Shown here in pieces: positions 27,441 to 51,500 of a stretch of 64,000 nt of DNA. Every line of letters starts with the position of its first letter. The stretch's first letter is position 1. The position numbers and the translations under genes are program-made. This DNA is from Lepisosteus oculatus (Eukaryota; Chordata; Actinopteri; Semionotiformes; Lepisosteidae): contig NC_090696.1 of assembly GCF_040954835.1 (NCBI RefSeq), positions 72,477,722-72,541,721 on the forward strand. The letters are read 5' to 3'. Below the pieces are notes generated by a model. That model ran no database searches and was not told where the DNA came from. It worked only from the letters and a program-made list of their open reading frames with translations.

Positions 27441-30196
27441 AAGCAAATTCTTGCAAATCCCCAGTCTGTTTGTAACACAATATTTGAAGGTTTTCTGCAT
27501 TAAATATTTTTTTTTGTCCACCATAATAACAAGTAGTTGTGATGACAAAAAAGGGCCAACATGCTGCCATTAAAATATTTTGACTTTATCCATTAAGAAA
27601 CTTAACGCATCCATTGACAGAAAAGTTTTAATATTCGAGAAGCTGATTATACATACCGTAGCTCTTAAATAATGTTGTGCGTGAAGCCATTATTATTTCA
27701 GGGTAGCGGCAATAATTCAATTACAAAAACAAATGAATTCCAGCAGTATACTCTAATTGATTCAATTACTGATTTTATGTTTAGTATTTAACTGTCATTC
27801 GATTTTATTTAAAAGGCAGCAAACATCAATTAATTTAATTTTAAATGACATTTCATCGCGACCTTTGAAGGGCTATTGGTCATGAAAATGGAAATTGAAA
27901 ATTGGGACATTGGAATGAAAATTAGATGACTGCTGTCTGTGAGTTATTTGTTTGTTTTTATCTTTTCATCTTAAATATATTTTGAATGATGTATTGCATG
28001 AACACAAACTTTCTACTAAACATTAACGGAATGATGAGTCATTCTTACTAAATGGAGCAAGAAGTTACGTAAGCCATGATGACAAGAATCAGACACTTCT
28101 GAAGCCACTTCACCAGCAGATGTCTTTGTGGTCTCATTTTATCTTCATTTAGGTAAACCATCTACATCTTGTCGTGCCTTTGCATAATTACAACTTAGTT
28201 GCAGTGAGTAATATCTCCTGTTTTCATAGGTGAGACATATTTTCAGCAGGAGAAAAATGTACTGAGTCCGCAGATTTTTGGCAGAGTCATTACAGAATAG
28301 CTGTAAGAAAGTCAGTAATTCCTTCACCCATTTAGGACACCCCATTTATACAGTACAGTTGGTGCTGAAAAAAACTGTAAGGCTGGGTACTTCAGAATGA
28401 CCTGTTTAAGTAATAAATGGTCTTTTTGTTTGGGAAAAATCCTACTTGTTTTATGTTTGGTCTTCCTCTGTTTGATCAACACATCTGTAAGGATGGGGTT
28501 TCTAAAAATGCAGTTGAACAGTGGCACTAATGAAACAGATTTTATAAATGATTTTATCCAGATCATATATCGAGAATAATTGAAACACGCAATGCCCTAT
28601 CAACCTGTGTGACATTTCCACTTATAATTTTCAAAACTAATCTTGCTAAAAGCACAGCTGGCACACAGAGAGGTTGTGCCGTCTGGCCTTCAGATGGTAG
28701 ACATCTACTGGCTCACTCAGGAAGCACTAAGACACCTGACAAATTGTCTTCATGCAAGTGGTCAGGAGACGGAGAGCAGCAATTCATCCCCCCCCCCAGA
28801 GGTTTCTGGGAAATGTAGTCGTGCTCTCACAGGGACCACATATGGACAGAAATCTATAACCTGATGCCATCAGTACAATACATACACCACTCACTCTTCA
28901 AGAGGCCACATGTTACATCTTTCTTACATTTATATTGTACATGTGGCTTTATTATGTTGTCAAAGAGTGCAGTTTGAGGATGGCAGTCATTATGTATGTA
29001 CTTGTTGTAGTTAAGAAAAAAAATGTTAAATAAAGTTTAATTTTAAAATATTTAGTTTGTGTTTTGAAAAAGATTCATAGGACCTTCTATATGTCTATAC
29101 ATGAGTAGGATACGTCAAGCTGTGCAGAAGAAAGAAAGTGAAGGCCTCAGGGATTTACGATACATTTTTGAAACACGTGATGTTTTTATGTCATATCAAC
29201 CTCTGGTGATTATGGAGACTTAATTATGATATGTGGTAGCTGTGAGGTTTTCATCACCTGCCTGTATTTCTCTTTTCACTGTTAGTCACTGTAACACCTG
29301 GGCACGCATTTCTCTAAGAAAGGTCAATTGTTCAATAAAAAGGAAATCTAGCGTCTCATTACAAGACCAGTAAAACGTGCCTCGTGTATGTAAAGCACAA
29401 AAATGTTGTTATTATTATTCTTCATAATTTTGTGTAATATTGAACATCTTTTTTTGCCATCATAGGGTTTATACAGTAACTGGATTTGTTTCTGGTCAAA
29501 ATAAGATATTGCTGCAGGAATCTGAGGAATCTCTCCTAGAAACTGAACGTTAAAGATTACATTCATAGAAGCTAAAATTAAACAGGTTTTTTTTCTGACA
29601 TGTAGCAAAATATACCTCAAATCTGATTAATGAAAAAGTCATTTGTAATGTTACACCCTTAATAATGGCCCTGTTTTGTTACTCCAGATATATTACAGCA
29701 GCAGATGATAAGTACTCAAGCAAAGTTTATTTAGTAGTTTGTATGACAGCACAAGCACTTCAAACAATAGAACAAAAAAGAGCTTTGGTATTTTTTATGC
29801 AGTCGTTTTTGGAAACTGTTGATTACTAATTAATTTAATTTTACTGCTTGGAGCATACAGTACATTTTCCCAATATCTACTGTCTTGAGTAGATGTGTTT
29901 TAGGATTAGCTATTAGGGAAAGAATAAAGAAATATTAGTTTGTAAAATTGAATCACCTGAATCTAATTTGTGAATTATTAGTAAATACTAGTCAGGCAAT
30001 TGCCTGATCTCCTGTCCAAGGTGTCTGACAGGTCAAATACCTTTTTTTTTAAATGAATCGTTGAAATGATTGAATATTAAATACCAGACAGATCACACTA
30101 AAACAGAAATATGTGACAGATTTATCAAAATATGCTGTATACAGTACACTATATAGGCTAAAGAGACTAATCTAATGTACATCTATGTCTATGGCA

Positions 30197-33100
30197 TCAT
30201 TCATCTACAGTTTGCAGGGTTTCAGCAAGTTCAGCAGTCTTCGACAACGGCCGCTGTTGGCTTTCACTCGACTCAAATCTAGAAACAAAGCATCATGGAA
30301 GAACATCAGAACATCATGTGAAATAGGACAGAGCACGATTCATTCACAGAAAGTACTGAAGGGGAGTGAAGTGCGATATCCCTCTTTAATTGACTTTTTT
30401 ATATGGTAGCTTAGCAAATTTTAAAAAAAGAGACAAATTAATTGATTTCGTGCACTCAGTTCCAAAAATGCAGGGTTGGAAAATGTGATCTCTGTGTTAT
30501 TCCTATAATTACAATTAAATTAAGGTGTTCTAGAAGACTTTTAAATGGCAACTCATTCTGCTGGTCTCCAGATGTCATAGACAATTTTTTGCACCTTATG
30601 TTTCTCTATATATGTTAGGTTTTTGAAGATGAACAGTAATTTAGAGTTACAGCATTATTAAGGCAGACTGAAAATGAATTTATCAGGTTAGTGAATCCCA
30701 ATAATACCATCAATTTTACTTAATGAAAAGTACAGGATGAAATTAAACAATTTAACAATTTGCTGTGCTACTTGATTAAGCTACTAAGAATGTGTTTTGA
30801 CCAATGAAATACAGCAGTGCTTATGTGAACAACTATGATGACACACATAATTATCTGTTTTTATGTCAATAAGATTTAGAAGACTGTACCAGAGTTAAGA
30901 GGGTTGTTTGCAAAGCAAAAAAATGTCTAAAAACATACCTGCGTTTCTGCAGCTGACTGTTCTGCATCGGCCTTTTCATCAATAGAGCGCTGGAAAGAAC
31001 AAAATATTACTTTACTGTACATCTTGATTACCTTTTTGTGAAATTTTCAAAGAGTTGGATGTTGGCCATGAATTGCCTTTTTCTTAATATTTAAAGATAT
31101 CAGATAAGGCATTTTTGTAAGCAGGATAAAAATACATGAAAATGTAATTAAATCTAATATATTGAGCAATTTCCTTTAACCTTTGCTTGTGATATGTATT
31201 GTTTATAAAACTCAGTAAGGTATATTCATACCTGGGCTCGTTGCAAACCTCCAGCTGCTTGCTGCTGTGGAACATTCCCAGGAGGGACTGGTCCTCCCTG
31301 ATGAACATTGCAAGTAGGATATTATTGAAATGTCTGCAGAGTGTGACATCCAGTTTTTGGGTTTGAAAATACTACACTTGTGTGGTATAACAGTCCTCCT
31401 GAAATCCTACTAGTTGGCACTGGTGTTGATAGAAGACGGTAAAAGGTGTAGCTCTGTCTTCTTACCTGTTATGATTATTACTTGCTTCATTCATACTTTA
31501 TATACTTATCTTTAAATTTGGGTATCGGCAACTGCGTTTCTCATTTTGTACTTGTCTCTTGCACATCCCAAAAAACAATAACTCAATTGATTTAATCTTT
31601 ACCACTCCCAAAGCAACATAAGAGGGCCGAGAATCATCTGGAATGTTTTTGTGATTCTACCAAAAATCTGCTCTGAAGTTACAGTAGTTTTGATTGGATG
31701 AGTAACAACACTCTTGACATCACTGTTTGCTGAAAGGCCTCTGGCAGGTCACAGGGGTTACGGCAAGCTTCATGCACAGACCCGTGAGCGTTAAGCTAGT
31801 AGGAGAATCTCAGCCTGCTAATGACTTAGCCCAGACTCCCAGGTGGAGATGTCTGGACTATAGGACTCAAGCTGTGCTCCAATCATGCTCCTCTACTTCT
31901 AAAGATATGTTACAGCCCTCGAATTAAGCATTTTACCTGTATAACAAAAATTAATTCTTTTAGTTTGTATTTATTAATACACATTATTTCTTTCATTGTA
32001 ATAGGGATAATACATTTTTATATGTTACATACAGTTCATATACTGTATGTGCACTTCTACAAAACAGTTGCAATAGTTAATGTAATAATAGTAAGGATCT
32101 AGGTTTGTTTATTGACTCAAAAGACATCAAACTAGTTTCTCTTCAAACCAAATCAGCACAGCAACTGCACTATGACTTCAAAAGCAAGTTCTTCACTCCC
32201 AGAAAACATTACAATACCGTATTACCATTTCACAGATACTGTAAATAACATACAACGTTTGCTTCATTGTTTTATAAGTGTCATCCATATGTTTGGTGTC
32301 ATTAAAAAGGAAATTACATACTGTGATCTGTTTTGCAAAGCACTTCATACTGTACATCAAGGACATTGTGATTTAAAGCAGAGAAGAGCTATCGGACCTG
32401 TGCATTCCTGATAGTACTTGAATTATTGCCCCTTTCTCTCCGTGATAATTTCTTCAGGTTTATTGGTTCCTGAACACTTCTGTGAATCCCAAGCTATCTT
32501 AACTAACACAACCGTTGGGGTGAAGCTTTTATAATGTATTAAACACTGGAGTCACCATACCAGGATTGGCTGTTGCAGAGGGTTCATTCCATTCTGGGCT
32601 GTTTGAGAAAGTGCAACATAGTACATCAGGCCCTGTCAAGGGAACAAAAAAGGGGATGCTGTGTGAAAGCTTGCATTGTTCTTCTAAGATCATTTTCATT
32701 ACAAAATTTGAAAATGTGAACGGATATAAAAACACAAAATGTTATTAAAAGTATAAGGAGTCACTATTTGCACAGTTCCTTCCTCAACACATTTGCTGGG
32801 ATGGCAAGTGAAAGAACCTTAATGCAAACCTTAATTTAATTTCTTTAAACAAAATAAACGTATATATTCCACAATACATCAAACTTACAATGAGCACACA
32901 CTCTAACATATAGTAATGCAGAAGCGCTACTGGGTAATAAAGTGTCCTTGAAAAGGTGATTGTCTTTTTTCAATCCGTTTATTGTTAATCCCTCCAAGCC
33001 CTGCTACCTGGTGTTGTCCCTGTCCTGGCTTTGAAACTGCAGTTCTTTATCACATCATAGTATGGATTAAAATACATTGTATTTAAGTATAACTTAAGAA

Positions 33101-34534
33101 CACATTCCGAGACTCCAGTTCAGTAGGCCTTACCCCATTGGGAGGTGGAGGTAGCTGTCCCTGAATCTGAGGAATGCCAGGCTGCATTGCCAGACCAGGG
33201 GAGAATGGCAGGCCAAACGGATTCACAGGGAGTCCTGGTTGTTGCATCAAAAATGATGGAACACCAGGAACCACCTAGAGAAGAAACGTACATTAGAAAA
33301 TCATCTGTACACCTCTACAGCCTCCTGTCGTTCCCTAAAATGTATCGATAGAGTGGATATCTTACAAGAACGCCTTCACGATTGTGGTGGGTATTAACAG
33401 CACACAGTTGCCATGGCTTCAGTGAATGGATATTAACAAGCTTTTGCACTTTATAAGGCTGAGGGGTCATAACCATCTGAACAGACTTCTATTACTGTCT
33501 ATTCTCAACAGAATTGGTTAGCAGCCACCACCAACTGTTCTGCACTTATTAAGTCACACTGCTGTGACATATCTAAATTTCAACAGTGAAACAGACGTAC
33601 TGTACTATATATATGTATTTTAAAAGGAACACCTTTCTGCTTTTTAGTGTGTTAGATGGGTTTCTCTCTTTTTTTACATGCTGAAGAAGAACATTTGTGT
33701 GAAACATCCCAAAATATATTTTCACCTCATTTATACCTTGAGTAATCTGAAAATGTATTTTTTTCCTTCAGGCTTTTATTTGTACACTGCAATAAACCTA
33801 CTCTAAAAACCTACTCCTGTCTGAATATCTGATTGTCATCAGAATATGTATCATCGCATAATAGTATTAATTCAAATATATTGATTTAGGTATAACTTAT
33901 CACCAACCAGGAGACATAAAGTTACAGGGAGCAAAATGCTTACCTGAGCAATCTGTGGTTGTAGAGTTAATCCACCACCATTCAGTAAAGCTGGAGTCAG
34001 ACCATTTACAACCAGCCCTGGATTAAGTCCATTTACCAGCCCTCCATTAAGGCCAACAAGCAGTTTCACCTTTTTATACAAAAAAGATCATTAGCAGCCC
34101 ATTTCAAATCCTCCCCTTTTTAAAGTAAATATCCAGTTAGAACAATGCTTTTAATAAATGTTCATTAACAGGGAAAAAAAACAAATGGTAACACAGTTGT
34201 TATTAGGATTATTAGATTATTAGGAAATGTCTGTCTGTCAAGTGACTTGATATTCCCTGCCATGACAAATCATGGAAGAAAAAAAACTTATATTGGAAAA
34301 GCTAGTACAGTATGTGAAGAAAAAACACCCTTACCTTTGATTCAGTTCCAACCTGTATGATGAAAAGGATAGACTTGTAATTAGCTTGAAACAGAAGAGG
34401 GACAAGACAATGTAGGGCGACACAAAAAGACTATCAAATAGTTTTTCTGTAAGTAAGAGATGTTACTGAAATAACATACTCACCGGAAAGAGGGCTAAGA
34501 AGCAGAGCATTACTGAAAACAGTACAAGCTTCAT
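30197..34534 (-). CDS. SCPP gene B1 (duplicate copy 1), G/N- and P/Q-rich
   Basis: Eight coding exons, about 199 residues: 34554..34484 (ATG 34534, MKLVLFSVMLCFLALFP), 34352..34335 (VGTESK), 34069..33944 (42 residues with LLVGLNGGLVNGLNPGL), 33274..33134 (47 residues, starts VVPGVPSFLMQQPGLP), 32632..32561 (starts GLMYYVALSQTAQNG), 31297..31232 (starts GGPVPPGNVPQQQ), 30989..30939 (RSIDEKADAEQSAAETQ), 30271..30197 (starts SSESQQRPLSK, has TAELAETLQ, ends TVDE-stop). All junctions are phase 0. The last exon uses acceptor TTTGAG|TCG; it is chosen because RPLSK..LAETLQ aligns with RPAMS..LAEALK of gene C. Exon 1 ends at 34818. AATAAA at 29731-29726 could end the transcript. Exon 3 lacks an S-x-E site. 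The paralogy with gene C is clear in exons 4-8. A role in mineralised matrix is inferred. Confidence 0.8.
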
Positions 34535-34898
34535 TCTTTCAGCCTGAGTCCTGGCTGAGGAAGAAAAAAAGATTGCAGTTAAATACCATATTAATCTGTC
34601 GGCTTATACTGTTTTCCCAAAATGTTAAGGTTTAATCTCAAATTTTGTTACTTTGCTTAAGTTAATTAATAAAGACTAAAAGCCTGAAAGTTTGCAATAT
34701 TTATGCATTTTAAAGTATTATATAGATCTTGAACAGTATATTTGTTTAATCTGTACATTAAACCTACTCAGAAGTTATTAAAAAAGAACTATAAAAACAA
34801 TATTTAACAAAACCTACCTTTTTGTGTGGATGTGTTTCTTTGGTACAGTCAGGAATGCTGACGGGTTTCTGTCCTATAAATTTGTTGTAAACCTCACC

Positions 34899-34946
34899 TT
34901 TTTAAAGAATTGTCATTAGCTTTCTATTGATTTTTTACCCAATCAG
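34899..34946 (-). promoter_or_regulatory. Core promoter of gene B1
   Basis: Minus-strand CTGATTGG (plus CCAATCAG at 34939-34946), a 32-bp gap, then CTTTAAAAAGG (34906-34899). The following GAGGTTTACA is shared with gene C (GAGTTTTACA). Exon 1 ends at 34818 with AAAAAG|GTAGGT. Confidence 0.7.
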
Positions 34947-35270
34947 AGTTAAGGATTCTAACATGATTCATAAGATTTGTCACATAATAATTATCACAAC
35001 CACATCCTTTTAAAAATTTGAGAAAATATTGAAAATATCATTACAGAAATGTGTAATAGTGATTAAGGATTATAAAAATTGACGTTTCGTGTGACATCAG
35101 TCCTTGCTTTAAGTCCATTTTAAGCCATGGTAATGCTATTTTTCAAGTTCATATATCTGTGTTTGGCAATTTTGGAAGGATGCAAGTTGGGTACTCACAT
35201 TTCCCATTGTCATGTGTTGGTAAATACTTCAGTACATAGTCTTAAGCATATAATTATAACGTTACCATGT

Positions 35271-35576
35271 ATTGTACTCTGGGTGTCATGATGGCCCTGC
35301 AGTTAGCATTATTGACTCACAGCTCTTGAGGACTGAGTTAAATATATTATTTAAATGCCTTTTGTGTGTGAAGTTTGTATGTTATTCCCATGGAAATGTG
35401 GGATTTTGCTCCAGTTTCTTCCCCCATCCCCAAGATGTAATATCAGGGTTACCTTCTGGCCTATGGCTCAGATCAATTGTAGTTTCTGTTCTTATCAGTT
35501 TAATGCTTGATAGGCTTACTCAATTTCCCTACTGGATTAATAGAGTCTTATCTATCTATCTGTCTATCTATCTACC
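35271..35576 (+). repeat. SINE with (TCTA)n tail, copy 1
   Basis: Recognisable order of a tRNA-type fish SINE: 'gatggccctgcagttagcat', 'ttgactcacagctcttgagg', 'gtgaagtttgtatgttattc', 'tgctccagtttcttcccccat', then 'ctggattaatagagtcttatc' and a TCTA microsatellite at about 35545-35574. The long open frame here is a by-product. Confidence 0.7.
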
Positions 35577-36219
35577 AGGCATCTCTGAATTGCTCCCTAC
35601 GTGCATGTGCCTGGTGATGAACCAGTGTTCCCATTCGTGGCACACTGTACACTGCCTTGCAAGCTGATGCAATAAGGCTGTATAGGAAGAAAGCAACGGG
35701 AATGTCCTAAAGGACCCATTTCTCCCTTTTGGACAGTGCTTGTTTTTTTCTTTCAGAAGGATAGTGAACTGAAAGGCTTCAGGTTCAGCTTGGATTGTCT
35801 GAAATAAAATCAAACGGGCAGGGAGGAGACGTTAGAGGAGATAATGAAATAGGCCAGAACAATCCGCTAATTTATCTATGCTGAGTGTGGATGATATTGT
35901 TCTTGCCTCGGAGCTCCAGAGACTTGATGCCAGTTTCAGGCATCTGTGTCTGGACTTTGATCCTCTTTGTGCTCATATGGGTTTTCTTCTAGTGCTCTTC
36001 TGAACTGCCTCTTCTACTCATGTAACTGGGCTTTCCGATAATGGAGGATAGCTGTGGACGAATATGTGTGACATCCAATGGATCATATGCAGCGATGCTT
36101 CTCGTGTAATAAATCACAGAGAGTTCTACAAGATGGTCAGAAAGAAAAATATTTACCCAAGGTGGTACCTAAAGTGCTAAAAATCTGTAAACCTGCAGTA
36201 AATTTGAAAGTACAACAGG

Positions 36220-36385
36220 TAACAGGTAATAGGTTTATTCCATGCTGAAAAGAGAAGAAACAAAATATAAGGTTTCGACTGTGGAGCCTTCTTCGTGTGT
36301 AAGCACCCACCTGTAGAAGGCTTCACAGTTTAAACGTTGTGTTTTCTTCTCTTTTCAGCATGGAATAAAACTTGTTTGAACTACT
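36220..36385. repeat. Penelope-like terminal sequence as large palindrome, copy 1
   Basis: Two arms of about 60-70 bp in inverted orientation: 'aataggtttattccatgctg ... gtggagccttcttcgtgtg' and 'cacctgtagaaggcttcaca ... cagcatggaataaaacttg'. The arm sequence equals the end of the Penelope-like fragment at 37.14 kb. Duplicated at 45.51-45.68 kb, so it predates the segmental duplication. Confidence 0.7.
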
Positions 36386-37094
36386 ACAATAGGTAATTTT
36401 GATTAAACTTAAAACTAAATATTTAAACAGTTTTAAAAGTTACAAAATCAGACAAATATGATTTTCTGTATTTACTATTGGATGTTTTTGAAGAAGTGAA
36501 TTGTGGCCTGTGATTTTCATTTTATACAGTTTTCATCATATTTGTGTCCAAAAATAGGTGTGTTTCCATAACATTCAGTGGCACTGTCCAAAATAATAAT
36601 AATTGCCCATTCACAATTGATGTATTAAACCCCAAGATATCCTCCCTGCACTTTTTCACCACAAAGATCTAGAATCCTTGAAATGTGAGCTTCCCTCTTC
36701 CTGAATCTGTGAACTGTGGTCTGATGTTCATGGAAAGCAGATGGAGATGAAAGATTACTTTATTAGAGGTTCTTGGTCAGATTGCCTGAGAGGGAAGCTG
36801 TATAATCTCTTGAGATGAATATCGTTGGTATGACTAAGAACATGAATGATGACAGGTTAGGCTGTGGTCTGTGGTCTCAAGAGGGGCGCTTCTGCAATAT
36901 GCATTTGAAATATACACCAGATAACTAACTCAATGGAGTACTGTATGCAAGCTTCTGCAAAGATATTACTACCGTAAATACCATGTTTTTCCTTATTTTT
37001 TATTTGTTTCTACTGCAGCTTCTTAGTATTGAGACAGAATTATTAGAAAGTAGATGACGCGACGTTTTATTTTTAAACTTATATATATATATAA

Positions 37095-37560
37095 ATAGTA
37101 CTTCAGGTGGGTAGCTGCTTCAGCATGCGTAGGCTGCAAAGGAACAAGTAATAGGTTTATTCCATGCTGAAAAAAAGAAGAAAGAGAACACAATGTTTCG
37201 GCCGTGGAGCCTTCTTCAGGTGTGAGAGAGACAGGGCAGTAGGCAAAGGTAAAGTAGCGGGAGAACAAAGGTTGGGAGGGAGGAGGAGTGAGAGGTGGGA
37301 GCAGGGGACAGAAAGAGAGGCCAATCAAGAGGTGTGAAGTCAGAATGGGTGCAGAGAGGTGTGAAAAGTAACTTCAAATGAATGGAGAAAATTTAAAAGA
37401 ACAGTAGTCTGTTGTTAAGAGAAGGGAGAATGTGTGATCCTAGCTGCAGAATAATTTTGGTTTCGGTGGTCTTTCTGATGTATGAGTTCGGAAAACCGTC
37501 TTTGAGAACACAGACGGAGAGATTAGAGTGGTCGTGGCCGTCAGAGGTGAAATGAGAAAT
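37095..37560 (-). mobile_element. Penelope-like retroelement 3' fragment, inserted after the duplication
   Basis: Present only in copy 1 of the segmental duplication; copy 2 passes directly from 'ataaatatacatataaata' to 'atattctcag' near 46.39 kb. On the minus strand an open segment reads HFTSDGHDHSNLSVCVLKDG and continues with RKTTETKIILQLGSH and LNNRLL. This resembles the conserved C-terminal 'HF...GH...DL.V.VL..F...RK..E..LI...LN' part of Penelope-like elements. At its 37.14-kb end it carries the 'aataggtttattccatgctg...gtggagccttcttcaggtgtg' terminal sequence. Truncated and non-coding as it stands. Confidence 0.6.
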
Positions 37561-37803
37561 AATATTCTCATTTTCTATTTTCTATGTCTTTTTTTGCTCT
37601 TTAACCTGAAAAAACACATGACATTGATCAAAAATAAACGAGGACAAAATACAGTTGAAATAATTGAAAAATAAACCAAAAAATCAAGTGAACAATACTT
37701 CTCTAATCATTTTTTTAGATCATATCAAACAAAATTTAGCCCTTTGATTACGTGTAGGGATATAAAAAAATATGACTACATCTCAGTAAATACAGTTGCT
37801 CTT

Positions 37804-37878
37804 TCCTTGGTGGTTGTATAGTGGTGAGCATAGCTGCCTTCCAAGCAGTTGACCCGGGTTCGATTCCCAGCCAATGCA
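37804..37878 (+). tRNA. tRNA-Gly(TCC)-like sequence, probable pseudogene, copy 1
   Basis: Closely follows vertebrate tRNA-Gly-TCC: 'tatagtggtgagcatagctg', anticodon arm 'ccttccaagcagt', T-arm 'gacccgggttcgattccc', acceptor 'ccaatgca'. Against it being functional: a 3-nt insertion in the D-arm and two mismatches in the acceptor stem. No T-run terminator follows at once. It lies 17 bp upstream of the 5S-derived SINE. Confidence 0.7.
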
Positions 37879-37894
37879 TCGCACAGACTTTTAA

Positions 37895-38430
37895 TGGCCA
37901 GTAGCCATATCACCCTGCAACTCACAACTGGCAACCCACTGAAGCTCAGCAGGTGTGAGCCTGGTCAGTACCTGGATGAGAGACCTCCTGGGAAAAACTA
38001 AGGTTGCTGCTGGAAGAGGTGTTAGTGGGGGCAGCAGGGGGCGCTCACCCTGCGGTCCATGTGGGTCCTAATGTCCCAGTATAGTGACGGGGACACTATA
38101 CTGTAAACAGGCGCTGTCTTTCAGATGAGATGTAAAACCGAGGTCCTGACTCTCTGTGGATTAAAAATCCCAGGGCATTTCTTGAGAAGAGTAAGGGTGT
38201 AACATATTGTGTAACCCTGGCGTCCTGGCCAAATTTCCCATTGGGCCTTACCAATCATGGCCTCCTAATAATCACCATCTATGAATTGGCTTCATTACTC
38301 TGCTCTCCTTCCCACTGATAGCTGATGTGTGGTGAGCGTTCTGGTGCACTATGGCTGCCGTCGCATCATCCAGGTGGATGCTGCACATTGGTGGTGGTGG
38401 AGAGGAGTCGAAATGAGTTGCAGACCCCCT
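37895..38430 (+). mobile_element. 5S-rRNA-derived SINE (SINE3-like), copy 1
   Basis: The head matches 5S rRNA closely: 'gtagccatatcaccctg', 'gaagctcagcaggtgtgagc', 'ctggtcagtacctggatgag', 'agacctcctgggaaaa'; these are the 5S internal promoter boxes A, IE and C. The body follows: 'gggggcgctcaccctgcgg', 'tcagatgagatgtaaaaccg', 'ccaatcatggcctcctaata', 'cactatggctgccgtcgcat', 'gtggtggtggagaggagt'. This is a 5S-headed SINE known from fish. Copy 2 at 46.66-47.20 kb is almost identical. Confidence 0.85.
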
Positions 38431-39778
38431 ACTGAGACCCTGTTTTTATTCTCCCACCATTGTCTTCCTGGAACTGAAACATTGTTCCAACTGGCTGTAA
38501 CACTGACTCTCATCACTCTATTGCTTAGATACCTTAAAAAGGGTATTTCTGGTGGCTTTCTCATCTGACCAGGGGTTTTCAGGCTTATCTGTTATATGAG
38601 CATCCCAGACATAGTTCTTTTCATTGATGCAATTGATGAGAAGATTTGATGTGCAACTGTTAAGAAACAATTGAGCTTACCTTTTTATTAAATCTACCTG
38701 GTATCACAAAAACAATCACTTTGTTTCGTAGAGCTACTGTATCATTTGTTTTGTATATGTTGATTGTCCTTAATCTTACTGTAGAGAGTATAAATTGATT
38801 TTTGTGTTATTCCCTTTCTAAGATTCTTAGATGGGTACATTTAGTTCACGGTCATCATGTTCTCCATTACACACTCCTCTGAAGCCTTGGTAACCCAATT
38901 TTTTCGCATCTCTCCTTCACTCTGATCCACGCCTTGTTTTTCAAACCCCTTCTGTCTTCAGACTTCTAATTAAAAGAGGAACGTTCATGCTAAAACCCAT
39001 TCAATCCAGGCTGTTGAAAAGTCTTTGTATCACCCCAGTGTCATTAACAAATGATTGGCTTAATCAACATAATTGCTAGAACAGGCAGCAGTCTACAGTA
39101 CGTTAATAACGTTCTCAATGGCTACTTGCAGCTAACGTATTTAACTCTCACGTCTCTATTAGTACCCTTAGGAGTTTCTTCTTTATTTAAAGTAATATGT
39201 AGCTCATTTTTAAATTTAAATTCAGAATTCACAAAGGTTTAGTAAGAGATATCACAAATTGTATAATACTTTAATTTTTTAACCTCTAAATAAGTACAGT
39301 ACATGTGTTCCAGTTTGTAAAAAAATTAAGCTTTCGGTAGGTTTAAATTTTATATGGTCCACTTTCAGTCAATGAAATTCCACAATTTTTTTATGATACC
39401 TGACAATATCCTTGTACATCTGATAGCAACAGTAGAATTAGGTATAATTATAAATTACTAGATATAAAAAGTAATTTATAAAAAATAATAAGTTTATGTA
39501 ATTTTGAAATCAAAGGAATGTACCAGTTGAAAAGACACATGAAACAGAAATTGTGATATTAACATATTTATTCATCAATCATTTTAAAATAGATGGACAT
39601 CAAGCACAGAAACTATTAGTCTGTAATCTTCAACATAAGAACAGAATTTTATTTTTCTAATCTTAAAACAGTAGTAATTAGACATCTTAAGTAACATTTA
39701 AATTGCCATGAATATTCTTTTTAGTATCACTTAATGCTGTAGTATCCTGGTGTGCCATCATGATGATTCATGCAGTAC

Positions 39779-42700
39779 CTACAGAGGCTGGAAACATTAA
39801 ACACAAAAAACATTGACTAGCAAACGAGCAGTAAGATTTGGCCTTAAAAAACAATCACCTGTAGAACTACTTCATGTACTGTAAATACTGTACTTGACTT
39901 TGGTGTCTGTGGTTTTGGGACTTAATGATTAATGGGATTAATGAATCCCAATAATTCCATTAATTTTACTTAAGGAATGGTACAGGATGAAATTAAACAA
40001 TTTAACAATTTGCTGTGCTACTTGATTAAGCTACTAAGAATGTGTTTTGACCAATGAAATACAGCAGTGCTTATGTGAACAACTATGATAACACACATAA
40101 TTATTTGTTTTTATGTCAATAAGATTTAGAAGACTGTAGCAGAGTAAAGAGGGTTGTTTGCAAAGCAAAAAAATGTCTAAAAACATACCTGTGTTTCTGC
40201 AGCTGACTGTTCTGCATCGGCCTTTTCATCAATAGAGCGCTGGAAAGAACAAAATATTACTTTACTGTACATCTTGATTACCTTTTTGTGACATTCTCAA
40301 AGAGTTGGATGTTGGCCATGAATTGCCTTTTTCTTAATATTTAAAGATATCAGATAAGGCATTTTTGTAAGCAGGATAAAAATACATGAAAATGTAATTA
40401 AATCTAATATATTGAGCAATTTCCTTTAACCTTTGCTTGTGATATGTATTGTTTATAAAACTCAGTAAGGTATATTCATACCTGGGCTCGTTGCAAACCT
40501 CCAGCTGCTTGCTGCTGTGGAACATTTCCAGGAGGGACTGGTCCTCCCTGATGAACATTACAAGTAGGATATTATTGAAATGTCTGCAGAGTGTGACATC
40601 CAGTTTTTGGGTTTGAAAATACTACACTTGTGTGGTATAACAGTCCCGTTTTCCTCCTGAAATCCTACTAGTTGGCACTGGTGTTGATAGAAGACGGTAA
40701 AAGGTGTAGCTCTGTCTTCTTACCTGTTATGATTATTACTTGCTTCATTCATACTTTATATACTTATTTTTAAATTTGGGTATCGGCAACTGCGTTTCTC
40801 ATTTTGTTCTTGTCTCTTGCACATCCCAAAAAACAATAACTCAATTGATTTAATCTTTACCACTCCCAAAGCAACATAAGAGGGCCGAGAATCATCTGGA
40901 ATGTTTTTGTGATTCTACCAAAAATCTGGTCTGAAGTTACAGTAGCTTTGATTGGATGAGTAACAACACTCTTGACATCACTGTTTGCTGAAAGGCCTCT
41001 GGCAGGTCACAGGGGTTACGGCAAGCTTCATGCACAGACCCGTGAGCGTTAAGCTAGTAGGAGAATCTCAGCCTGCTAATGACTTAGCCCAGACTCCCAG
41101 GTGGAGATGTCTGGACTATAGGACTCAAGCTGTGCTCCAATCATGCTCCTCTACTTCTAAAGATATGCTAAAGCCCTCGAATTAAGCATTTTACCTGTAT
41201 AACAAAAATTAATTATTTTAGTTTGTATTTATTAATACACATTATTTCTTTCATTGTAATAGGGATAATACATTTTTATATGTTACATACAGTTCATATA
41301 CTGTATGTGCACTTCTACAAAACAGTTGCACTAGTTATTGTAATAATAGTAAGGATCTAGGTTTGTTTATTGACTCAAAAGACATCAAACTAGTTTCTCT
41401 TCAAACCAAATCAGCACAGCAACTGCACTATCACTTCAAGAGCAAGTTCTTCACTCCCAGAAAGCATGACAATACCGTATTACCATTTCAATGTTACTGT
41501 AAATAACATACAAAGTTTGCTTCATAGTTTTATAAGTGTCATCCATATGTTTGGTGTCATTAAAAAGGAAATTACATACTGTGATCTGTTTTGCAAAGCA
41601 CTTCATACTGTACATCAAGGACATTGTGATTTAAAGCAGAGAAGAGCTATCGGACCTGTGTATTCCTGATAGTACTTGAATTATTGCCCCTTTCTCTCCG
41701 TGATAATTTCTTCAGGTTTATTGGTTCCTGAACACTTCTGTGAATCCCAAGCTATCTCAGCTAACACAACCGTTGGGGTGAAGCTTTTATAATGTATTAA
41801 ACACTGGAGTCACCATACCAGGATTGGCTGTTGCAGAGGGTTCATTCCATTCTGGGCTGTTTGAGGAAGTGCAACATAGTACATCAGGCCCTGTCAAGGG
41901 AACAAAAAATGGGATGCTGTGTGAAAGCTTGCATTGTTCTTCTAAGATCATTTTCATTACAAAATTTGAAAATGTGAACGGATATAAAAACACAAAATAT
42001 TATTAAAAGTATAAGGAGTCACTATTTGCACAGTTCCTTCCTCAACACATTTGCTGGGATGGCAAGTGAAAGAACCTTAATGCAAACCTTAATTTAATTT
42101 CTTTAATCAAAATAAACGGATATATTCCACAATACATCAAACTTACAATGAGCACCCACTCTAACATACAGTAATGCAGAAGCGCTACTGGGTAATAAAG
42201 TGTCCTTGAAAAGGTGATTGTCTTTTTTCAATCCGTTTACTGTTAATCCCTCCAAGCCCTGCTACCTGGTGTTGTCCCTGTCCTGGCTTTGAAACTGCAG
42301 TTCTTTATCACATCATAGTATGGATTAAAATACATTGTATTTAAGTATAACTTAATAACACATTCCGAGACTCCAGTTCAGTAGGCCTTACCCCATTGGG
42401 AGGTGGAGGTAGCTGTCCCTGAATCTGAGGAATGCCAGGCTGCATTGCCAGACCAGGGGAGAAGGGCAGGCCAAACGGATTCACAGGGAGTCCTGGTTGT
42501 TGCATCAAAAATGATGGAACACCAGGAACCACCTAGATAAGAAACGTACATTAGAAAATCATCTGTACACCTGTACAGCCTCCTGTCGTTCCCTAAAACG
42601 TATCGATAGAGTGGATATCTTACGAAGAACGCCTTCACGATTGTGGTGGGTATTAACAGCACACAGTTGCCATGGCTTCAGGGAATGGATATTAACTAGC

Positions 42701-43734
42701 TTTTGCACTTTATAAGGCTGAGGCGTCAGAACCATCTGAACAGACTTCTATTACTGTCTATTCTCTAAAGAAAGTCAACGTTAGCAGCCACCACCAACTG
42801 TTCTGCACTTATTAAGTCACACTGCTGTGACATATCTAAATTTCAACAGTGAAACAGACATACTGTCTATATGTATGTATTTTAGAAGGAACACCTTTCT
42901 GCTTTTTAGTGTGTTAGATGGGTTTCTCTCTTTTTTTACATGCTGAAGAAGAACATTTGTGTGAAACATCCCAAATTATCTTTTCACCTCATTTATACCT
43001 TGAGTAATCTCAAAATGTTTTTTTTTCCTTCAGGCTTTTATTTGTACACTGCAATAAACCTACTCTAAAAACCTACTCCTGTTTGAATATCTGATTGTCA
43101 TCAGAATATGTATCATCGCATAATAGCATTAATTCAAATATATTGATTTAGGTATAACTTAATCACCACCCAGGAGACATAAAGTCACAGGGAGCAAAAT
43201 GCTTACCTGAGCAATCTGTGGTTGTAGAGTTAATCCACCACCATTCAGTAAAGCTGGAGTCAGACCATTTACAACCAGCCCTGGATTAAGTCCATTTACC
43301 AGCCCTCCATTAAGGCCAACAAGCAGTTTCACCTTTTTATACAAAAAAGATCATTAGCACCCCATTTCAAATCCTCCCCTTTTTAAAGTAAATATCCAGT
43401 TAGAACAATGCTTTTAATAAATGTTCATTAACAGGAAAAAATTGACTTGATATTCCCTGCCATGACAAATCATGGAAGAAAAAACACTTATATTGGAAAA
43501 GCTAGTACAGTATGTCAAGAAAAAACACCCTTACCTTTGAATCAGTTCCAACCTGTATGATGAAAAGGATAGACTTGTAATTAGCTTGAAACAAAAGAGG
43601 GACAAGACAATGTAGGGTGACACAAAAAGACTATCAAATAGTTTTTCTGTAAGTGAGAGATGTTACTGAAATAACATACTCACCGGAAAGAGGGCTAAGA
43701 AGCAGAGCATTACTGAAAACAGTACAAGCTTCAT
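39779..43734 (-). CDS. SCPP gene B2 (duplicate copy 2) with gene-C-type last exon
   Basis: Coding exons parallel B1: 43754..43684 (ATG 43734), 43552..43535 (VGTDSK), 43332..43207, 42532..42392, 41890..41819 (GLMYYVALPQTAQNG), 40547..40482, 40239..40189 (RSIDEKADAEQSAAETQ). Differences from B1 are few: E to D in exon 3 and S to P in the GLMYY exon. The duplication ends inside the next intron, so the B-type last exon (SSESQQ...) is absent. The first acceptor downstream, TGTTTCCAG at 39790-39788, opens a copy of gene C's terminal exon, which here reads CCT CTG TAG (P-L-stop at 39779), with AATAAA at 39653-39648. The predicted protein is about 177 residues and lacks the acidic LAETLQ tail of B1. 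Exon 1 ends at 44041. The terminal splice is inferred. Confidence 0.75.
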
Positions 43735-44121
43735 TCTTTCAGCCTGAGTCCTGGCTGAGAAAGAAAAAAAGACTGCAGTTAAATAGCATGTTAATCTGTC
43801 TGTTTATACTGTTTTCCCAAAATGTTAAGGTTTAATCTCAAATATTGTTACTTTGCTTAAGTTTATTAATAAAGATTAAAAGCCTGAAAGTTTGCAATAT
43901 TTATGCATTTTAAAGTGTTATATAGATCATAGCAAACATTATGATAATATAATGAACAGTATATTTGTTTAATCTGTACATTAAACCTACTCAGAAGTTA
44001 TTAAAAAAGAACTATAAAAACAATATTTAACAAAACCTACCTTTTTGTGTGGATGTGTTTCTTTGGTACAGTCAGGAATGCTGACGGGTTTCTGTCCTGT
44101 AAATTTGTTGTAAACCTCACC

Positions 44122-44169
44122 TTTTTAAAGAATTGTCATTAGCTTTCTATTGATTTTTTACCCAATCAG
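44122..44169 (-). promoter_or_regulatory. Core promoter of gene B2
   Basis: Copy of the B1 promoter: CTGATTGG (plus CCAATCAG at 44162-44169), 32-bp gap, CTTTAAAAAGG (44129-44122). No difference in either element from B1, so both duplicates kept the whole proximal promoter. Confidence 0.7.
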
Positions 44170-44494
44170 AGTTAAGGATTCTAACATGATTCATAAGATT
44201 TGTCACATAATAATTATCACAACCACATCCTTTTAAAAAAATTGAGAAAATATTGAAAATATCATTACAGAAATGTGTAATAGTGATTAAGGATTATAAA
44301 AACTGACGTTTCGTGTGACATCAGTCCTTGCTTTAAGTCCATTTTAAGCCATGGTAATGCTATTTTTCAAGTTCATATATCTGTGTTTAGCAATTTTGGA
44401 AGGATGCAAGTTGGGTACTCACATTTCCCATTGTCATGTGTTGGTAAATACTTCAGTACATAGTCTTAAGCATATAATTATAACGTTACCATGT

Positions 44495-44805
44495 ATTGTA
44501 CTCTGGGTGTCATGATGGCCCTGCAGTTTGCATTATTGACTCACAGCTCTTGAGGACTGAGTTAAATATATTATTTAAATGCCTTGTGTGTGTGGAGTTT
44601 GTATGTTATTCCCATGGAAATGTGGGATTTTGCTCCAGTTTCTTCCCCCAACCCCAAGATGTAATATCAGGGTTACCTTCTGGCCTATGGCTCAGATCAA
44701 TTGTAGTTTCTGTTCTTATCAGTTTAATGCTTGATAGGCCTACTCAATTTCCCTACTGGATTAATAGAGTCTTATCTATCTATCTGTCTGTCTATCTATC
44801 TACCA
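44495..44805 (+). repeat. SINE with (TCTA/TCTG)n tail, copy 2
   Basis: Duplicate of the SINE at 35.27 kb. The tetranucleotide tail is one or two units longer (44774-44803), the expected microsatellite drift between copies. Confidence 0.7.
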
Positions 44806-45511
44806 GGCATCTCTGAATTGCTCCCTACGTGCATGTGCCTGGTGATGAACCAGTGTTCCCATTCGTGGCACACTGTGCACTGCCTTGCAAGCTGATGCAA
44901 TAAGGCTGTATAGGAAGAAAGCAACAGGAATGTCCTAAAGGAGCCATTTCTCCCTTTTGGACAGTGCTTGTTTTTTTCTTTCAGAAGGATAGTGTACTGA
45001 AAGGCTTCAGGTTCAGCCTGGATTGTCTGAAATAAAATCAAGCGGGCAGGGAGGAGACGTTAGAGGAGAGAATGAAATAGGCCAGAACAATCCGCTAATT
45101 TATCTACGCTGAGTGTGGATGATATTGTTCTTGCCTCGGAGCTCCAGAGACTTGATTCCAGTTTCAGGCATCTGTGTCTGGACTTTGGTCCTCTCTGTGC
45201 TCATATGGGTTTGCTTCTAGTGCTCCGATTTCCCTCTATCTCCCAAAGCAGACACCCTGGCTAAACTTCTAAATTCACCCTCTTCTGAACTGCCCCTTCT
45301 ACTCATGTAACTGGACTTTCCGATAATGGAGGAAAGCTGTGGACGAATATGTGTGACATCAAATGGATCATATGCAGCGATGCTTCTCATGTAATAAATC
45401 ACGGAGTCCATCTTGTCCATCTACAAGATGGTCAAAAAGAAAATGTTTTACCCAAGATGGTACCTAAGATATTAAAAATATGTAAACCTGCAGTAAATTT
45501 GAAAGTACAAT

Positions 45512-45680
45512 AGGTAACAGGTAATAGGTTTATTCCATGTTGAAAAGAGAAGAAAGAAAACATAACGTTTCGACTGTGGAGCCTTCTTCATGTGTAAGCA
45601 CCCACCTGAAGAAGGCTCCACAGTTGAAACGTTGTGTTTTCTTTCTTCTCTTTTCAGCATGAAATAAAACTTTAGAACTA
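45512..45680. repeat. Penelope-like palindrome, copy 2
   Basis: Duplicate of the palindrome at 36.22 kb, with better-preserved arms: 'tgtggagccttcttcatgtg' against 'cacctgaagaaggctccaca'. Confidence 0.7.
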
Positions 45681-46571
45681 CTACAATAGGTAATTTTGAT
45701 TAAACTTAAAACTAAATATTTAAACAGTTTTAAAAGTTACAAAATCAGACAAATATGATTTTCTGTATTTACTATTGGATGTTTGAAGAAGTGAACTGTG
45801 GCCTGTGATTTTCATTTTATACAGTTTTCATCATATCTGTGTCTAGAAATAGGTGTGTTTCAATAACATTCAGTGGCACTGTCCAAAATAATAACAATTG
45901 CCCATTCACAAATGATGTATTAAACCCCAAGATTTCCTCCCTGCACTTTTTCACCACAAAGATCTAGAACCCTTGAAATGTGAGCTTCCCTCTTCCTGAG
46001 TCTGTGAAATGTGGTCTGATGTTCATGGAAAGCAGATGGAGATTAAAGATCACTTTATTAGAGGTTCTTGGTCAGATTGCCTGAGAGGGAAGCTGTATTA
46101 TCTCTTGAGATGAATAACGTTGGTATGACTAAGAACATGAATGATGACAGGTTAGGCTGTGGTCTGTGGTCTCAAGAGGGGCGCTTCTGCAATATGCATT
46201 CGAAATATACACCGGATAACTAACTCAATGGAGTATGCAAGCTTCTGCAAAGATATTACTACCGTAAATACCATGTTTTTCCTTATTATTTGTTTGTTTC
46301 TACTGTAGCTACTTAGTATTGAGACAGAATTATTAGAAAGTAGATGACGCGACGTTTTATTTTTAAACTAATATATAAATATACATATAAATAATATTCT
46401 CAGTTTCTATTTTCTTTTTTTCTCTTTAACCTGGAAAAAAACATGACATTGATAAAAAATAAACGAGGACAAAATACTTTTTTCAGATCATATCAAACAA
46501 AATTTAGCCCTCTGATTACGTGTAGGGATATAAAAAAATATGACTACATCTCAGTAAATACAGTTGCTCTT

Positions 46572-46646
46572 TCCTTGGTGGTTGTATAGTGGTGAGCATA
46601 GCTGCCTTCCAAGCAGTTGACCCGGGTTCGATTCCTGGCCAATGCA
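46572..46646 (+). tRNA. tRNA-Gly(TCC)-like sequence, probable pseudogene, copy 2
   Basis: Duplicate of the sequence at 37.80 kb with one change visible in the T-arm side ('attcctggcc' for 'attcccagcc'). Same D-arm insertion and acceptor-stem mismatches. Confidence 0.7.
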
Positions 46647-46662
46647 TCGCACAGACTTTTAA

Positions 46663-47198
46663 TGGCCAGCAGCCATATCACCCTGCAGCTCACAACTGGC
46701 AACCCACTGAAGCTCAGCAGGTGTGAGCCTGGTCAGTACCTGGATGGGAGACCTCCTGGGAAAAACTAAGGTTGCTGCTGGAAGGGGTGTTAGTGGGGGC
46801 AGCAGGGGGCGCTCACCCTGCGCTCCATGTGGGTCCTAATGTCCCAGTATAGTGACGGGGACACTATACTGTAAACAGGCGCCGTCTTTCAGATGAGATG
46901 TAAAACCGAGGTCCTGACTCTCTGTGGATTAAAAATCCCAGGGCATTTCTTGAGAAGAGTAAGGGTGTAACATATTGTGTAACCCTGGCGTCCTGGCCAA
47001 ATTTCCCATTGGCCCTTACCAATCATGGCCTCCTAATAATCACCATCTATGAATTGGCTTCATTACTCTGCTCTCCTTCCCACTGATAGGTGATGTGTGG
47101 TGAGCGTTCTGGTGCACTATGGCTGCCGTCGCATCATCCAGGTGGATGCTGCACATTGGTGGTGGTGGAGAGGAGTCGAAATGAGTTGCAGACCCCCT
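46663..47198 (+). mobile_element. 5S-rRNA-derived SINE, copy 2
   Basis: Duplicate of the SINE at 37.90 kb. Box C region 'ctggatgggagacctcctgg' is slightly closer to 5S rRNA here than in copy 1 ('ctggatgagagacctcctgg'). Confidence 0.85.
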
Positions 47199-48526
47199 AC
47201 TGAGACCCTGTTTTTATTCTCCCACCATTGTCTTCCTGGAACTGAAACATCGTTCCAACTGGCTGTAACACTGACTCTCATCACTCTATTGCTTAGATAC
47301 CTTAAAAAGGGTATTTCTGGTGGCTTTCTCATCTGACCAGGGGTTTTCAGGCTTATCTGTTATATGAGCATCCCAGACATAGTTCTTTTCATTGATGCAA
47401 TTGATGAGAAGATTTGATGTGCAACTGTTAAGAAACAATTGAGTTTACCTTTTTATTAAATCTACCTGGTATCACAAAAACAATCACTTTGTTTCGTAGA
47501 GCTACTGTATCATTTGTTCTGTATATGTTGATTGTCCTTAATCTTGCTGTAGAGAGTGTAAATTGATTTTTGTGTTATTCCCTTTCTAAGATTCTTCGAT
47601 GGGTACATTTAGTTCACGGTCATCATGTTCTCCATTATACACTCCTCTGAAGCCTTGGTAACCCAATTTTTTCGCATCTCTCCTTCGCTCTGATCCACGC
47701 CTTGTTTTTCAAACCCCTTCTGTCTTCAGACTTCTAATTAAAAGAGGAACGTTCATGCTAAAACCCATTCAATCCAGGCTGTTGAAAAGTCTTTGCATCA
47801 CCCCAGTGTCATTAACAAATGATTGGCTTAATCAACATAATTGCTAGAACAGGCAGCAGTCTACAGTACGTTAATAACGTTCTCAATGGCTACTTGCAGC
47901 TAACGTATTTAACTCTCACGTCTCTATTAGTACCCTTAGGAGTTTCTTCTTTATTTAAAGTAATATGTAGCTCATTTTTAAATTTAAATTCAGAATTCAC
48001 AAAGATTTAGTAAGAGATATCACAAATTGTATAATACCTTAATTTTTTAACCTCTAAATAAGTACAGTACATGTGTTCCAGTTTGTAAAAAAATTAAGCT
48101 TTCGGTAGGTTTCAATTTTATATGGTCCACTTTCAGTCAATGAAATTCCACTAATGTTTTTTATGATACCTGACAATATCCTTGTACATCTGATAGCAAC
48201 AGTAGAATTAGCTATAATGATAAATTACTAGACATAAAAAGTAATTTATAAAAAATAATAAATTTATGTAATCTTGAAATCAAAGGAATGTACCAGCTGA
48301 AAAGACACATGAAACAGAAATTGTGATATTAACATATTTATTCATCAATCATTTTAAAATAGACGTACATCAAGCACAGAAACTATTAGTCTGTATCTTC
48401 AACATAAGAACAGAATTGTATTATTCTAATCTTAAAACAGTAGTAATTAGACATCTTCAGTAACATTTAAATTGCCATTAATATTCTTTTTAGTATCATT
48501 TAATGCTGCAGTATCCCGGTGTGCCA

Positions 48527-51500
48527 TCACGATGATTCATGTTGTACCTGCAGAGGCTGGAAACATTAAACACATAAACATTCACTAGCAAACGAGCAGT
48601 AAGATCTGGCCTTAAAAAACAATCACCTGTAGAACTACTTCATGTACTGTAAATACTGTACTTGACTTTGGTGTCTGTGGTTTTGGGACTTATGGTTTTT
48701 AGTATCTGGAACCAATGACAGTGCTTTACTGCACTTGCAATTCCTAAGCTGTAAATTGATTTAATTTGAAATTACTGCCTCTAGTATTTAGGTGCTTATT
48801 CAGTATGATGATCCTATTTTATGCCACCTTGTTTGACATCAGTTCCTGAGGGATTGTGGTCAGTATTAACAGTTGGAACTCCACTTACCAAAATGCTTTG
48901 GTATTGCAAATGAAAAGTTACGGTAGTAGTCAGTTTTGAGAAAATGAGTGCTTCATTTTTAAATGCAGGATAAACTAAGAGTACATTTTTACTGTGAAAA
49001 GAAATGACTTTAGCCCTATGCATATCTGACTCGATATCATGTTTGGCCCCATTTGAATTCTTAGAAATATGTTTAGTCTTGTGTTAGACCCAGAAGGTGG
49101 ATCAAAGAGTAATGTAAATCTTGGATTATACTGTACGTGAAGATTTTAAGACATATCTCTTTAACTATACTTACAAGGTTCGTATTGATGTGTTCCAGGT
49201 ATTTATTTGGACGGATTTAGTTTGGATTGAAATGAAGGAAGCTGGAATGTACAAAACAAAAAATCACCAAAAATGATGGTGATAGGCAAATGCTGGCAGT
49301 CAAAATTATGAGAAAGTTTACTGAAATCTTGCATACACAGAAAATGATCAATTATCCATTGACTCATTCAAAAGTTTTAAATTTATTTGAACTAAAAATA
49401 AAACAGTCAACACCTTTTACTGACATTTTATCACATTACTTCCATATGTCATCAACCAGTGAAAGAATGCACATTTATGTTAGAGGGTTTAAGACCCTTC
49501 ATGAAAACACATGAGATTGGAAAATATGTGAGCACCTGAAAGATTGGTTCTTCATTTTAACATCAACTGTTAAGATGATTTCAGAATTTCTGTTAAGTCG
49601 AGTGCCCTCTGAACAGAATCTGGAGTAGGAATATTAAATATTGTGCATGCTCTATACCACTCAAATGTGGATATGTGGGTATAGTGCAGTGTCCAAACTC
49701 AAAATTATGGTGTCCTAGAATTTCTTTAGTAGACACTTCTGAAAACAACAAGGTCTATAAGGTACAGTAGATGCAGTGAGAGTTTAGTCTTGCTGTAAGC
49801 AAGCTTCAAAACAGACAAATCCTGAGAAGTTGAAGAATGCTTTTTACTGCCACTGAAGTAAAACTCCAGGTGCAATCTCCGTTGTTTGAATATTGTTTCT
49901 TAAAGACTGTCTGCAAGATGCTGTAAGTGTGACAAAGACAACATCGACAGTACCTTGCAGAAAGGAAGAGAATGGACAGAATGGAAATGAGTAGTGTGCA
50001 AAATGTGATTTACGAGCCTCTAAAGAAAGGAAAAACATGATTTTGTAACCTTTATTACCTTTCGTAATGGAAGGTGACTTAAAGAAAACATTCACAATAC
50101 GAAAAATATTTGATTTTTGTTTTCAAAATATCAGTCTGGAAATTCAACTTTAAAAGTAAATCTCAAATAGAGCTGTTTCTGACCTACAGTAAGGGCAAAA
50201 GTGTCAAAGACTGTGATAGAAATATAAATAATCAATACACTTTTACAGACGTACCTTTAGAGCTTCAGCAAGAGACATCGCTGGCCGAGCACTGGAAAGT
50301 GATGCAGCCTGAATGGAAGAAAATACATATTTTAAGAAAATTAAGGGCATGGAAATAACTAATTCAACATTTCAAAGGGTCAACACGAGGGCCCGATTGA
50401 AAATTGTTCAATTTTAGAAATCATTGTTATCGTCGGTATCTCAACAAAGCTGACCAATAATTATTGGCATCACTGTAAGCTCACTCTCTGATTGTTTTAA
50501 CCTTTTGAGCCATTTGAACATTAGGTACAAATAATAAACGATAGCAGGTAGTATAGATATGACCTGTATTAAATGTGTTTTTACATATTATCATATGCAA
50601 AACCTTAATCAACTGCAGTGTACATACTCTATCAGCATATAAGCTATCAAAACATCAACATATGTAGGCTGAACATTTGCAAGGGTTAACTCTCGTACCT
50701 CTGAGCCTGGCACTGCTGGATTTGGGTTTGCAGGTGCTGAATGCTAGAAGCAAAGAGAAATTAAGAGAATAAGCAATAAGTATATAACACTATACTATAA
50801 TGTCATAGTAAGTACAGTACATGTGGCGTTTATATTTGTTTTAACAAAGCTGATAAATCTACAGATATCTTACTGTACGGAATATACAGTTAATTACAAT
50901 TGCTTCCCGCAGCACCAAAGTGGCTACAATATCTGCTTTGCTTGTGTTGCTAATCATGTCAATGAAATAATGAATAAAGTATTGTAGTTCAACCATAAGT
51001 ATTTTCTTAGCATGGTCTACAACATTCTTTCTTTAATTCTATGTTATTGGACTCTGGGTGAGAGCACTGTACTGTATTTGACAGTCCAATTGGCACAGCG
51101 TAAAGAGCTGGAAGACACCCTTCGTACCTTGACTCTCTGTGCTCCATTGCCAGCTGCCTGTACACCAGCTGCCTGGAGTGCCGGTAACTGCAGGTTGCCA
51201 TTTGCTCCGGCAACTGGAAGAATCTAAGCAGCCAAAAAGTATAAAATCCGCAAAACCTTACTCCTGTATCTGAAAATATACACAACACTATTCCTGGAAG
51301 CAGACGTGTAAGCTTTTCACAAGTTACAAATGATTTTTTTTTTTTTTAGCTGAAACAAGCTGCATGTTGGAGACAACTCCCAGATAATTTGCAATACAAA
51401 AAAAAAAGGACTGGAAAATGCAAACTATGTTTCAGTAGTTCGGTCAAATCACAACTTAACTTGCCTGGCTGAATCACTGGCCAAAGATCAGCGTTGCCAC

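Follow-up and report, generated by a model that had tools for sequence, protein, structure and literature searches.

Gene B2 is probably a chimeric P/Q-rich SCPP gene, produced by a single tandem duplication spanning about 9 kb and closed by an exon of its neighbour, gene C. The window, the whole 64,000-nucleotide stretch of Lepisosteus oculatus DNA analysed here, carries two copies of gene B, hereafter labelled B1 and B2, together with gene C (Table 1). The sequence places one break within the last intron of B and the other in the intron preceding C's last exon, the ends having been joined without homology and with about 13 nucleotides of filler; the joint is read directly in the DNA, whereas the repair route is reconstructed. 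B1 and C remain whole. B2 retains from B the upstream region, the signal peptide, the body and the SxxE exon, and the donor of its RSIDEK exon at 40188 would be spliced over 401 nucleotides to a C-derived acceptor at 39787. The C-derived exon is predicted to add two residues (PL) and to supply a stop codon, C's 3′ UTR and polyA signals in exchange for B's own. The fused transcript is predicted to be used, and the likely consequence is an extra dose of an almost unchanged secreted matrix protein, encoded with a different 3′ UTR, and not a protein with a new C-terminal domain.

Table 1 Features of the duplicated region, in window positions
Feature	Positions	Strand	Content	Basis
Left unit (U1)	30688..39924	.	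B1 body and upstream region; right end is the C-type terminal exon predicted for B2	self-BLAST, alignment
Right unit (U2)	39938..48692	.	B2 body and upstream region; right end is C's own terminal exon	self-BLAST, alignment
Duplication joint	39925..39937	.	about 13 nt matching neither B nor C intron	
B1 coding body, exons 2–8	30939..34534	-	34534-34484, 34352-34335, 34069-33944, 33274-33134, 32632-32561, 31297-31232, 30989-30939	
B1's own last exon	29731..30278	-	better acceptor gives start 30278 (I, stop); sequence-only start 30271 (SSESQQRPLSKTAELAETLQTVDE, stop); AATAAA at 29731	
B2 coding body, exons 2–8	40189..43734	-	43734-43684, 43552-43535, 43332-43207, 42532-42392, 41890-41819, 40547-40482, 40239-40189	
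B2 exon 8 (RSIDEK exon)	40189..40239	-	RSIDEKADAEQSAAETQ; closes the B body; carries two SxxE motifs	
C-type terminal exon of B2	39758..39787	-	CCTCTGTAG, read as PL and stop in phase 0	translation; acceptor score 4.8
C-derived 3′ UTR of B2	39572..39757	-	AATAAA at 39653 and 39572	
Gene C, coding exons 2–9	50255..53229	-	paralogous to B (exons 4 and 5)	
C's terminal exon	48527..48556	-	source of B2's last exon; PLQVQHESS and stop if spliced directly from exon 9	
Alternative stop exon of C	49175..49241	-	LPSFQSKLNPSK and stop, followed by a GTAAGT donor; lies beyond the duplicated unit	

Self-BLAST of the window resolves two collinear units forming a tandem duplication of about 9 kb. In a global alignment the units are 97.5% identical, with 218 differences over 8640 aligned bases (about 2.5% divergence) and 21 indel events, the largest of which measures 458 nt and three others 57–63 nt. 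As regards gene conversion between the units, the longest identical run is 230 nt, on a rough estimate about the length that this divergence would give. Of the outer ends, 30688 on the left falls within the last intron of B1 (30938-30279) and 48692 on the right within the intron that precedes C's exon at 48556. B2 is B1-like down to about 39938, and from about 39924 downwards it matches C's last intron and last exon, with CATTAATC present twice around the joint. A 701-bp query spanning the joint has three matches in the 1.2-Gb assembly. Only the one at its own position is full length; the other two are of its B half at B1 and of its C half at C. When the B1 protein is searched against the genome, its last-exon reading is covered by one of the 12 matches listed (23 candidates scored), which is B1 itself. 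A sequence-only reading of this DNA had set the breakpoints at about 30.69 kb in B's last intron and about 48.69 kb in C's, and had placed a copy of C's terminal exon after the RSIDEK exon of B2; the unit ends, the joint query and the search with the B1 protein together show these placements to be right. What is found is thus a single novel joint inside two genes, with both parents intact, as in a chimera made by tandem duplication. We infer the ancestral order from the position of the joint.

B and C have the make-up of P/Q-rich SCPP genes. Each opens with an exon that resembles a signal peptide by eye. After exon 2, proline and glutamine make up 26.6% of B, where 6 of 158 residues are acidic, and 22.3% of C, where 5 of 197 are. 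All predicted coding exons are multiples of three, namely B exons 2–8 (seven in both copies) and C exons 2–9 (eight). SxxE occurs twice in B exon 8, whose peptide is identical in B1 and B2, and once in C exon 9, and SxE once in C exon 3 and nowhere in the B body; motifs this short also occur by chance. A search of the window alone, with filters off, detects similarity between C and B in exon 4 (52% identity, E 4e-7) and exon 5 (43%, E 5e-7). The genome search with C returns nine matches at E <=1, of which a single weak one lies outside the window (two stops, E 0.008). Neither B1 nor C matches a Pfam model; for such fast-changing proteins, family models are an aid and not a definition.

The setting looks like a fish SCPP (tooth/scale) cluster. 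The SPARC domain (PF10591) has 11 matches in the genome, two of which, at C1:72553526-72553660 and C1:72556006-72556155, lie on the minus strand starting 11.8 kb to the right of the window, and a third, at C1:72310703-72310837, is on the same strand 167 kb to the left. A SPARC-domain gene 11.8 kb outside the window is as expected of an SCPP cluster, and with it several features of P/Q-rich SCPP genes are present: SPARC-like linkage, predicted phase-0 coding introns, a P/Q-rich, secreted protein (signal judged by eye) with few acidic residues, and SxE/SxxE motifs. Two further genes, at about 26.2–21.3 kb and 16.9–12.1 kb, are odam-like, a label given by eye only since the ODAM model has no match in this genome, nor any in the controls; neither gene has a Pfam match. 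Against Pfam, two of three neighbouring genes are without a match and one matches only below the cut-off. Another SCPP-like gene has an exon at about 61780-62010 on the minus strand that contains repeated Pro-Gln-(Y/V)-(I/V)-Pro-Gln-Val units. In ray-finned fish, P/Q-rich SCPP genes cluster around sparcl1, also with odam, and scpp3 varies in copy number, with three or more copies in most actinopterygians, according to the part of PMC13367325 available. The multi-copy scpp3 and the scpp9a/scpp9b genes described there are similar to B and C in being clustered P/Q-rich SCPP genes, and the window resembles the gar-type cluster I (sparcl1, odam, several scpp3 and scpp9), a likeness at the level of the cluster and not of named orthologues.

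The copy of C's terminal exon lies 401 nt downstream of the RSIDEK exon of B2. The sequence-only reading was right that the exon at 39787 derives from C; it omitted that in B2 the exon codes only PL before an in-frame TAG. C's copy reads PLQVQHESS and B2 stops at PL because it has TAG where C has CAG, with a predicted end of ...SAAETQPL. Splice sites were scored from general base frequencies and not with a trained model, which makes the scores a rough guide: the acceptor at 39787 scores 4.8 and that of C's own copy 3.8, and the exon-8 donor scores 6.0 in B1 and has the same letters in B2. A rival acceptor at 40133 equals 39787 in score (4.8) and would give B2 a different end. In the 3′ UTR, the AATAAA at 39572 is shared with C at 48342, and that at 39653 is absent at the matching place in C, so the polyA site may differ between B2 and C. 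Between the units, 4 of 30 positions differ in the joined exon and 9 of 197 in the 3′ UTR; as other windows of the unit are also locally diverged (20 of 200 near 36.2 kb), we make no claim of selection on the joined exon.

B1 keeps its own last exon, as previously read, but the start given to it at 30271, and with it a tail of 24 amino acids, is doubtful: this start follows a GAG acceptor scoring −2.7, and a TAG 7 nt upstream scores 4.1. From 30278 the exon would open with ATT TGA, that is isoleucine and a stop, and B1 would end in ...SAAETQI. Should splicing use the stronger acceptor, the ends would differ by I versus PL, and the B1 and B2 proteins may then differ at the end only by ETQI versus ETQPL. 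The firm difference between the predicted genes is the 3′ UTR, which in B2 is C's. The 24-residue tail is weakly similar to the tail of C, at p 0.0035 against shuffles when the longest C query is used, and at 0.03 and 0.076 with shorter queries; but when the window's remaining open 24-mers are scored (5154, some of them overlapping, with C's and B1's own tails excluded), 13 do as well. Homology among the last exons is unsupported (C versus D p 0.48, B1 versus C p 0.08, B1 versus D p 0.70).

The last introns bear on how the joint formed. The sequence-only reading had proposed exon swapping by unequal crossing-over in introns of B and C, and the two genes are indeed paralogous, exons 4 and 5 being detectably similar. 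Chimeras of neighbouring paralogues by this route are known, for example CYP11B1/CYP11B2, which arises from unequal crossing-over between adjacent genes (PMC8750845, in the part of the source available). Here, however, a local alignment of the B and C last introns scores 28 against a shuffle mean of 26.2 and is equalled by 30 of 100 shuffles, so that the homology on which unequal crossing-over depends is not found at the two breakpoints, and the joint carries 13 nt of filler. We therefore regard homologous crossing-over as very unlikely; given the missing intron homology and the filler, end joining or template switching fits better. Of the earlier reading, then, the observation is partly confirmed and the interpretation partly supported. 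Across the joint lies a 7-bp inverted repeat (TGGGATT/AATCCCA) that neither arm contains. It might point to snap-back templating of the filler, but an inverted repeat with a stem of at least 6 is present at 108 of 1500 random centres, and the repeat is not significant. That the assembly has placed two haplotypes in tandem, as the high similarity of the units might suggest, is barely credible: the units differ by 2.5% and by 21 indel events, some of them long, the window has no run of N, and the joint has its own filler.

Whether B2 is a working gene, and where C itself ends, bear on what the chimera means. Over the 525-nt body, B1 and B2 differ by five changes, two nonsynonymous (E to D and S to P) and three synonymous. 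Coding sequence (5/525) is less diverged than non-coding (213/8115; Fisher one-sided p 0.007) or introns only (p 0.031), p values that rest on these five changes. With dN 0.005 and dS 0.022, dN/dS is about 0.23, and the two nonsynonymous changes compare with 8.4 expected at the intron rate (p 0.009). Coding indels number zero, an absence expected by chance with probability 0.26, and an upstream block of 287 nt (34730-35016) has one substitution and one indel. The bodies of B1 and B2 thus look functional from their sequence, although constraint measured on one pair does not demonstrate selection on each copy. A stop codon placed in the final exon does not require message decay. That B2 is instead a decaying copy, with little or no transcription and a joined exon without a role, is unlikely: its exon reads PL where C's reads PLQVQHESS, and the joined exon and 3′ UTR have diverged beyond the average of the unit, but the body is intact under this dN/dS, the splice sites are retained and the upstream block is almost unchanged.

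The identity of C's last coding exon is uncertain between the exon at 48556 and that at 49241-49175. It is quite possible, at somewhat under an even chance, that C normally ends at the latter (LPSFQSKLNPSK and stop), the 48556 exon being a 3′ UTR exon and B2 reading two codons into a captured untranslated exon. The acceptor at 49241 scores 5.4 against 3.8 for 48556, and a 12-residue reading, closed by a stop, leads from it to a GTAAGT donor that scores 3.5. The neighbouring gene at 12647 is read as having a comparable layout, and the 48556 exon, with 4 of 30 positions different, has no sign of coding constraint. This combination of acceptor, stop and donor occurs five times in 128 kb (both strands), or an expected 0.07 per 1.7 kb (0.13 with looser limits), although the limits of the scan were set after the exon had been seen. 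Against this end, 49241 is one of ten acceptors scoring >=4 between 50250 and 48556, another of which reaches 8.1; the donor of gene D's corresponding exon is poor (1.6); and the two stop-exon peptides, of the C candidate and the 12647 gene, are weakly similar (p 0.04, uncorrected). The available part of PMC4373244 also assigns the stop codon of every enamel matrix protein gene, and of many SCPP genes, to the last exon, which counts against an end at 49241. Should C end at 49241-49175, its 48556 exon would be untranslated, and phase 0 would no longer be an argument at the B2 junction. The sequence-only reading had held that the swap was tolerated because all introns are phase 0; the predicted coding exons are in phase 0 as it said, and the tolerance is overstated, since what it saves is two codons before a stop.

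On our preferred reading, a duplication that gave B2 an end from C, the chimeric joint is real and of a known kind, and its meaning at the protein level is small. In Drosophila yakuba, 76 chimeras are described among 1116 tandem duplications, with stress on altered expression through shuffled ends (PMC5460883, the part available). As there, the breaks lie inside two genes and unite the 5′ part of one with the 3′ part of the other; unlike there, the parents of B2 are paralogous SCPP-like genes, the breaks lie in last introns and the 3′ partner codes for two residues. A second parallel is placental AMTN, in which a terminal exon 9 with a few residues and a stop codon has been recruited, the stop codon being suggested as its possible sole role (PMC4373244, likewise in part). 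In both cases the end of an SCPP gene is replaced by a short stop exon, and SxxE motifs stand just before the last exon, in AMTN exon 7 as in B exon 8 and C exon 9. AMTN differs in that its exon 8 gained a new internal splice donor and one more exon was taken in, whereas a duplication brought B2 the exon of a neighbour. Among titles and the openings of abstracts, we found no SCPP chimera of this kind, in a literature whose coverage of gar is partial and which is no proof that the case is unpublished.

The case is well preserved and its joint readable: a gene of a fast-changing mineralization cluster gains a new end while the parents are retained. It suggests that growth in SCPP copy number can also swap 3′ UTRs and stop exons, and it would gain weight if the two copies proved to be differently regulated in teeth or scales. 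A bolder generalization, which we think improbable, is that SCPP terminal exons are interchangeable cassettes of stop codon and 3′ UTR: the body would functionally end at the SxxE exon, any downstream acceptor with a stop nearby would close the gene, and B2 would have made C's untranslated exon its stop exon. Were this so, two near-identical matrix proteins would be under the control of different 3′ UTRs.

The units also carry non-coding elements. A 458-nt stretch at 37099-37556, present only in the left unit and with an end that resembles a repeat element by eye, was either inserted after the duplication or lost from the other copy. Once per unit, a tRNA-Gly(TCC)-like sequence adjoins a 5S-rRNA-like sequence (37808-38015 and 46576-46783), a pair that looks like a composite SINE. 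Each unit further holds one U2-snRNA-like sequence, upstream of B1 at 35449-35560 and of B2 at 44673-44784, both scoring above the Rfam gathering score.
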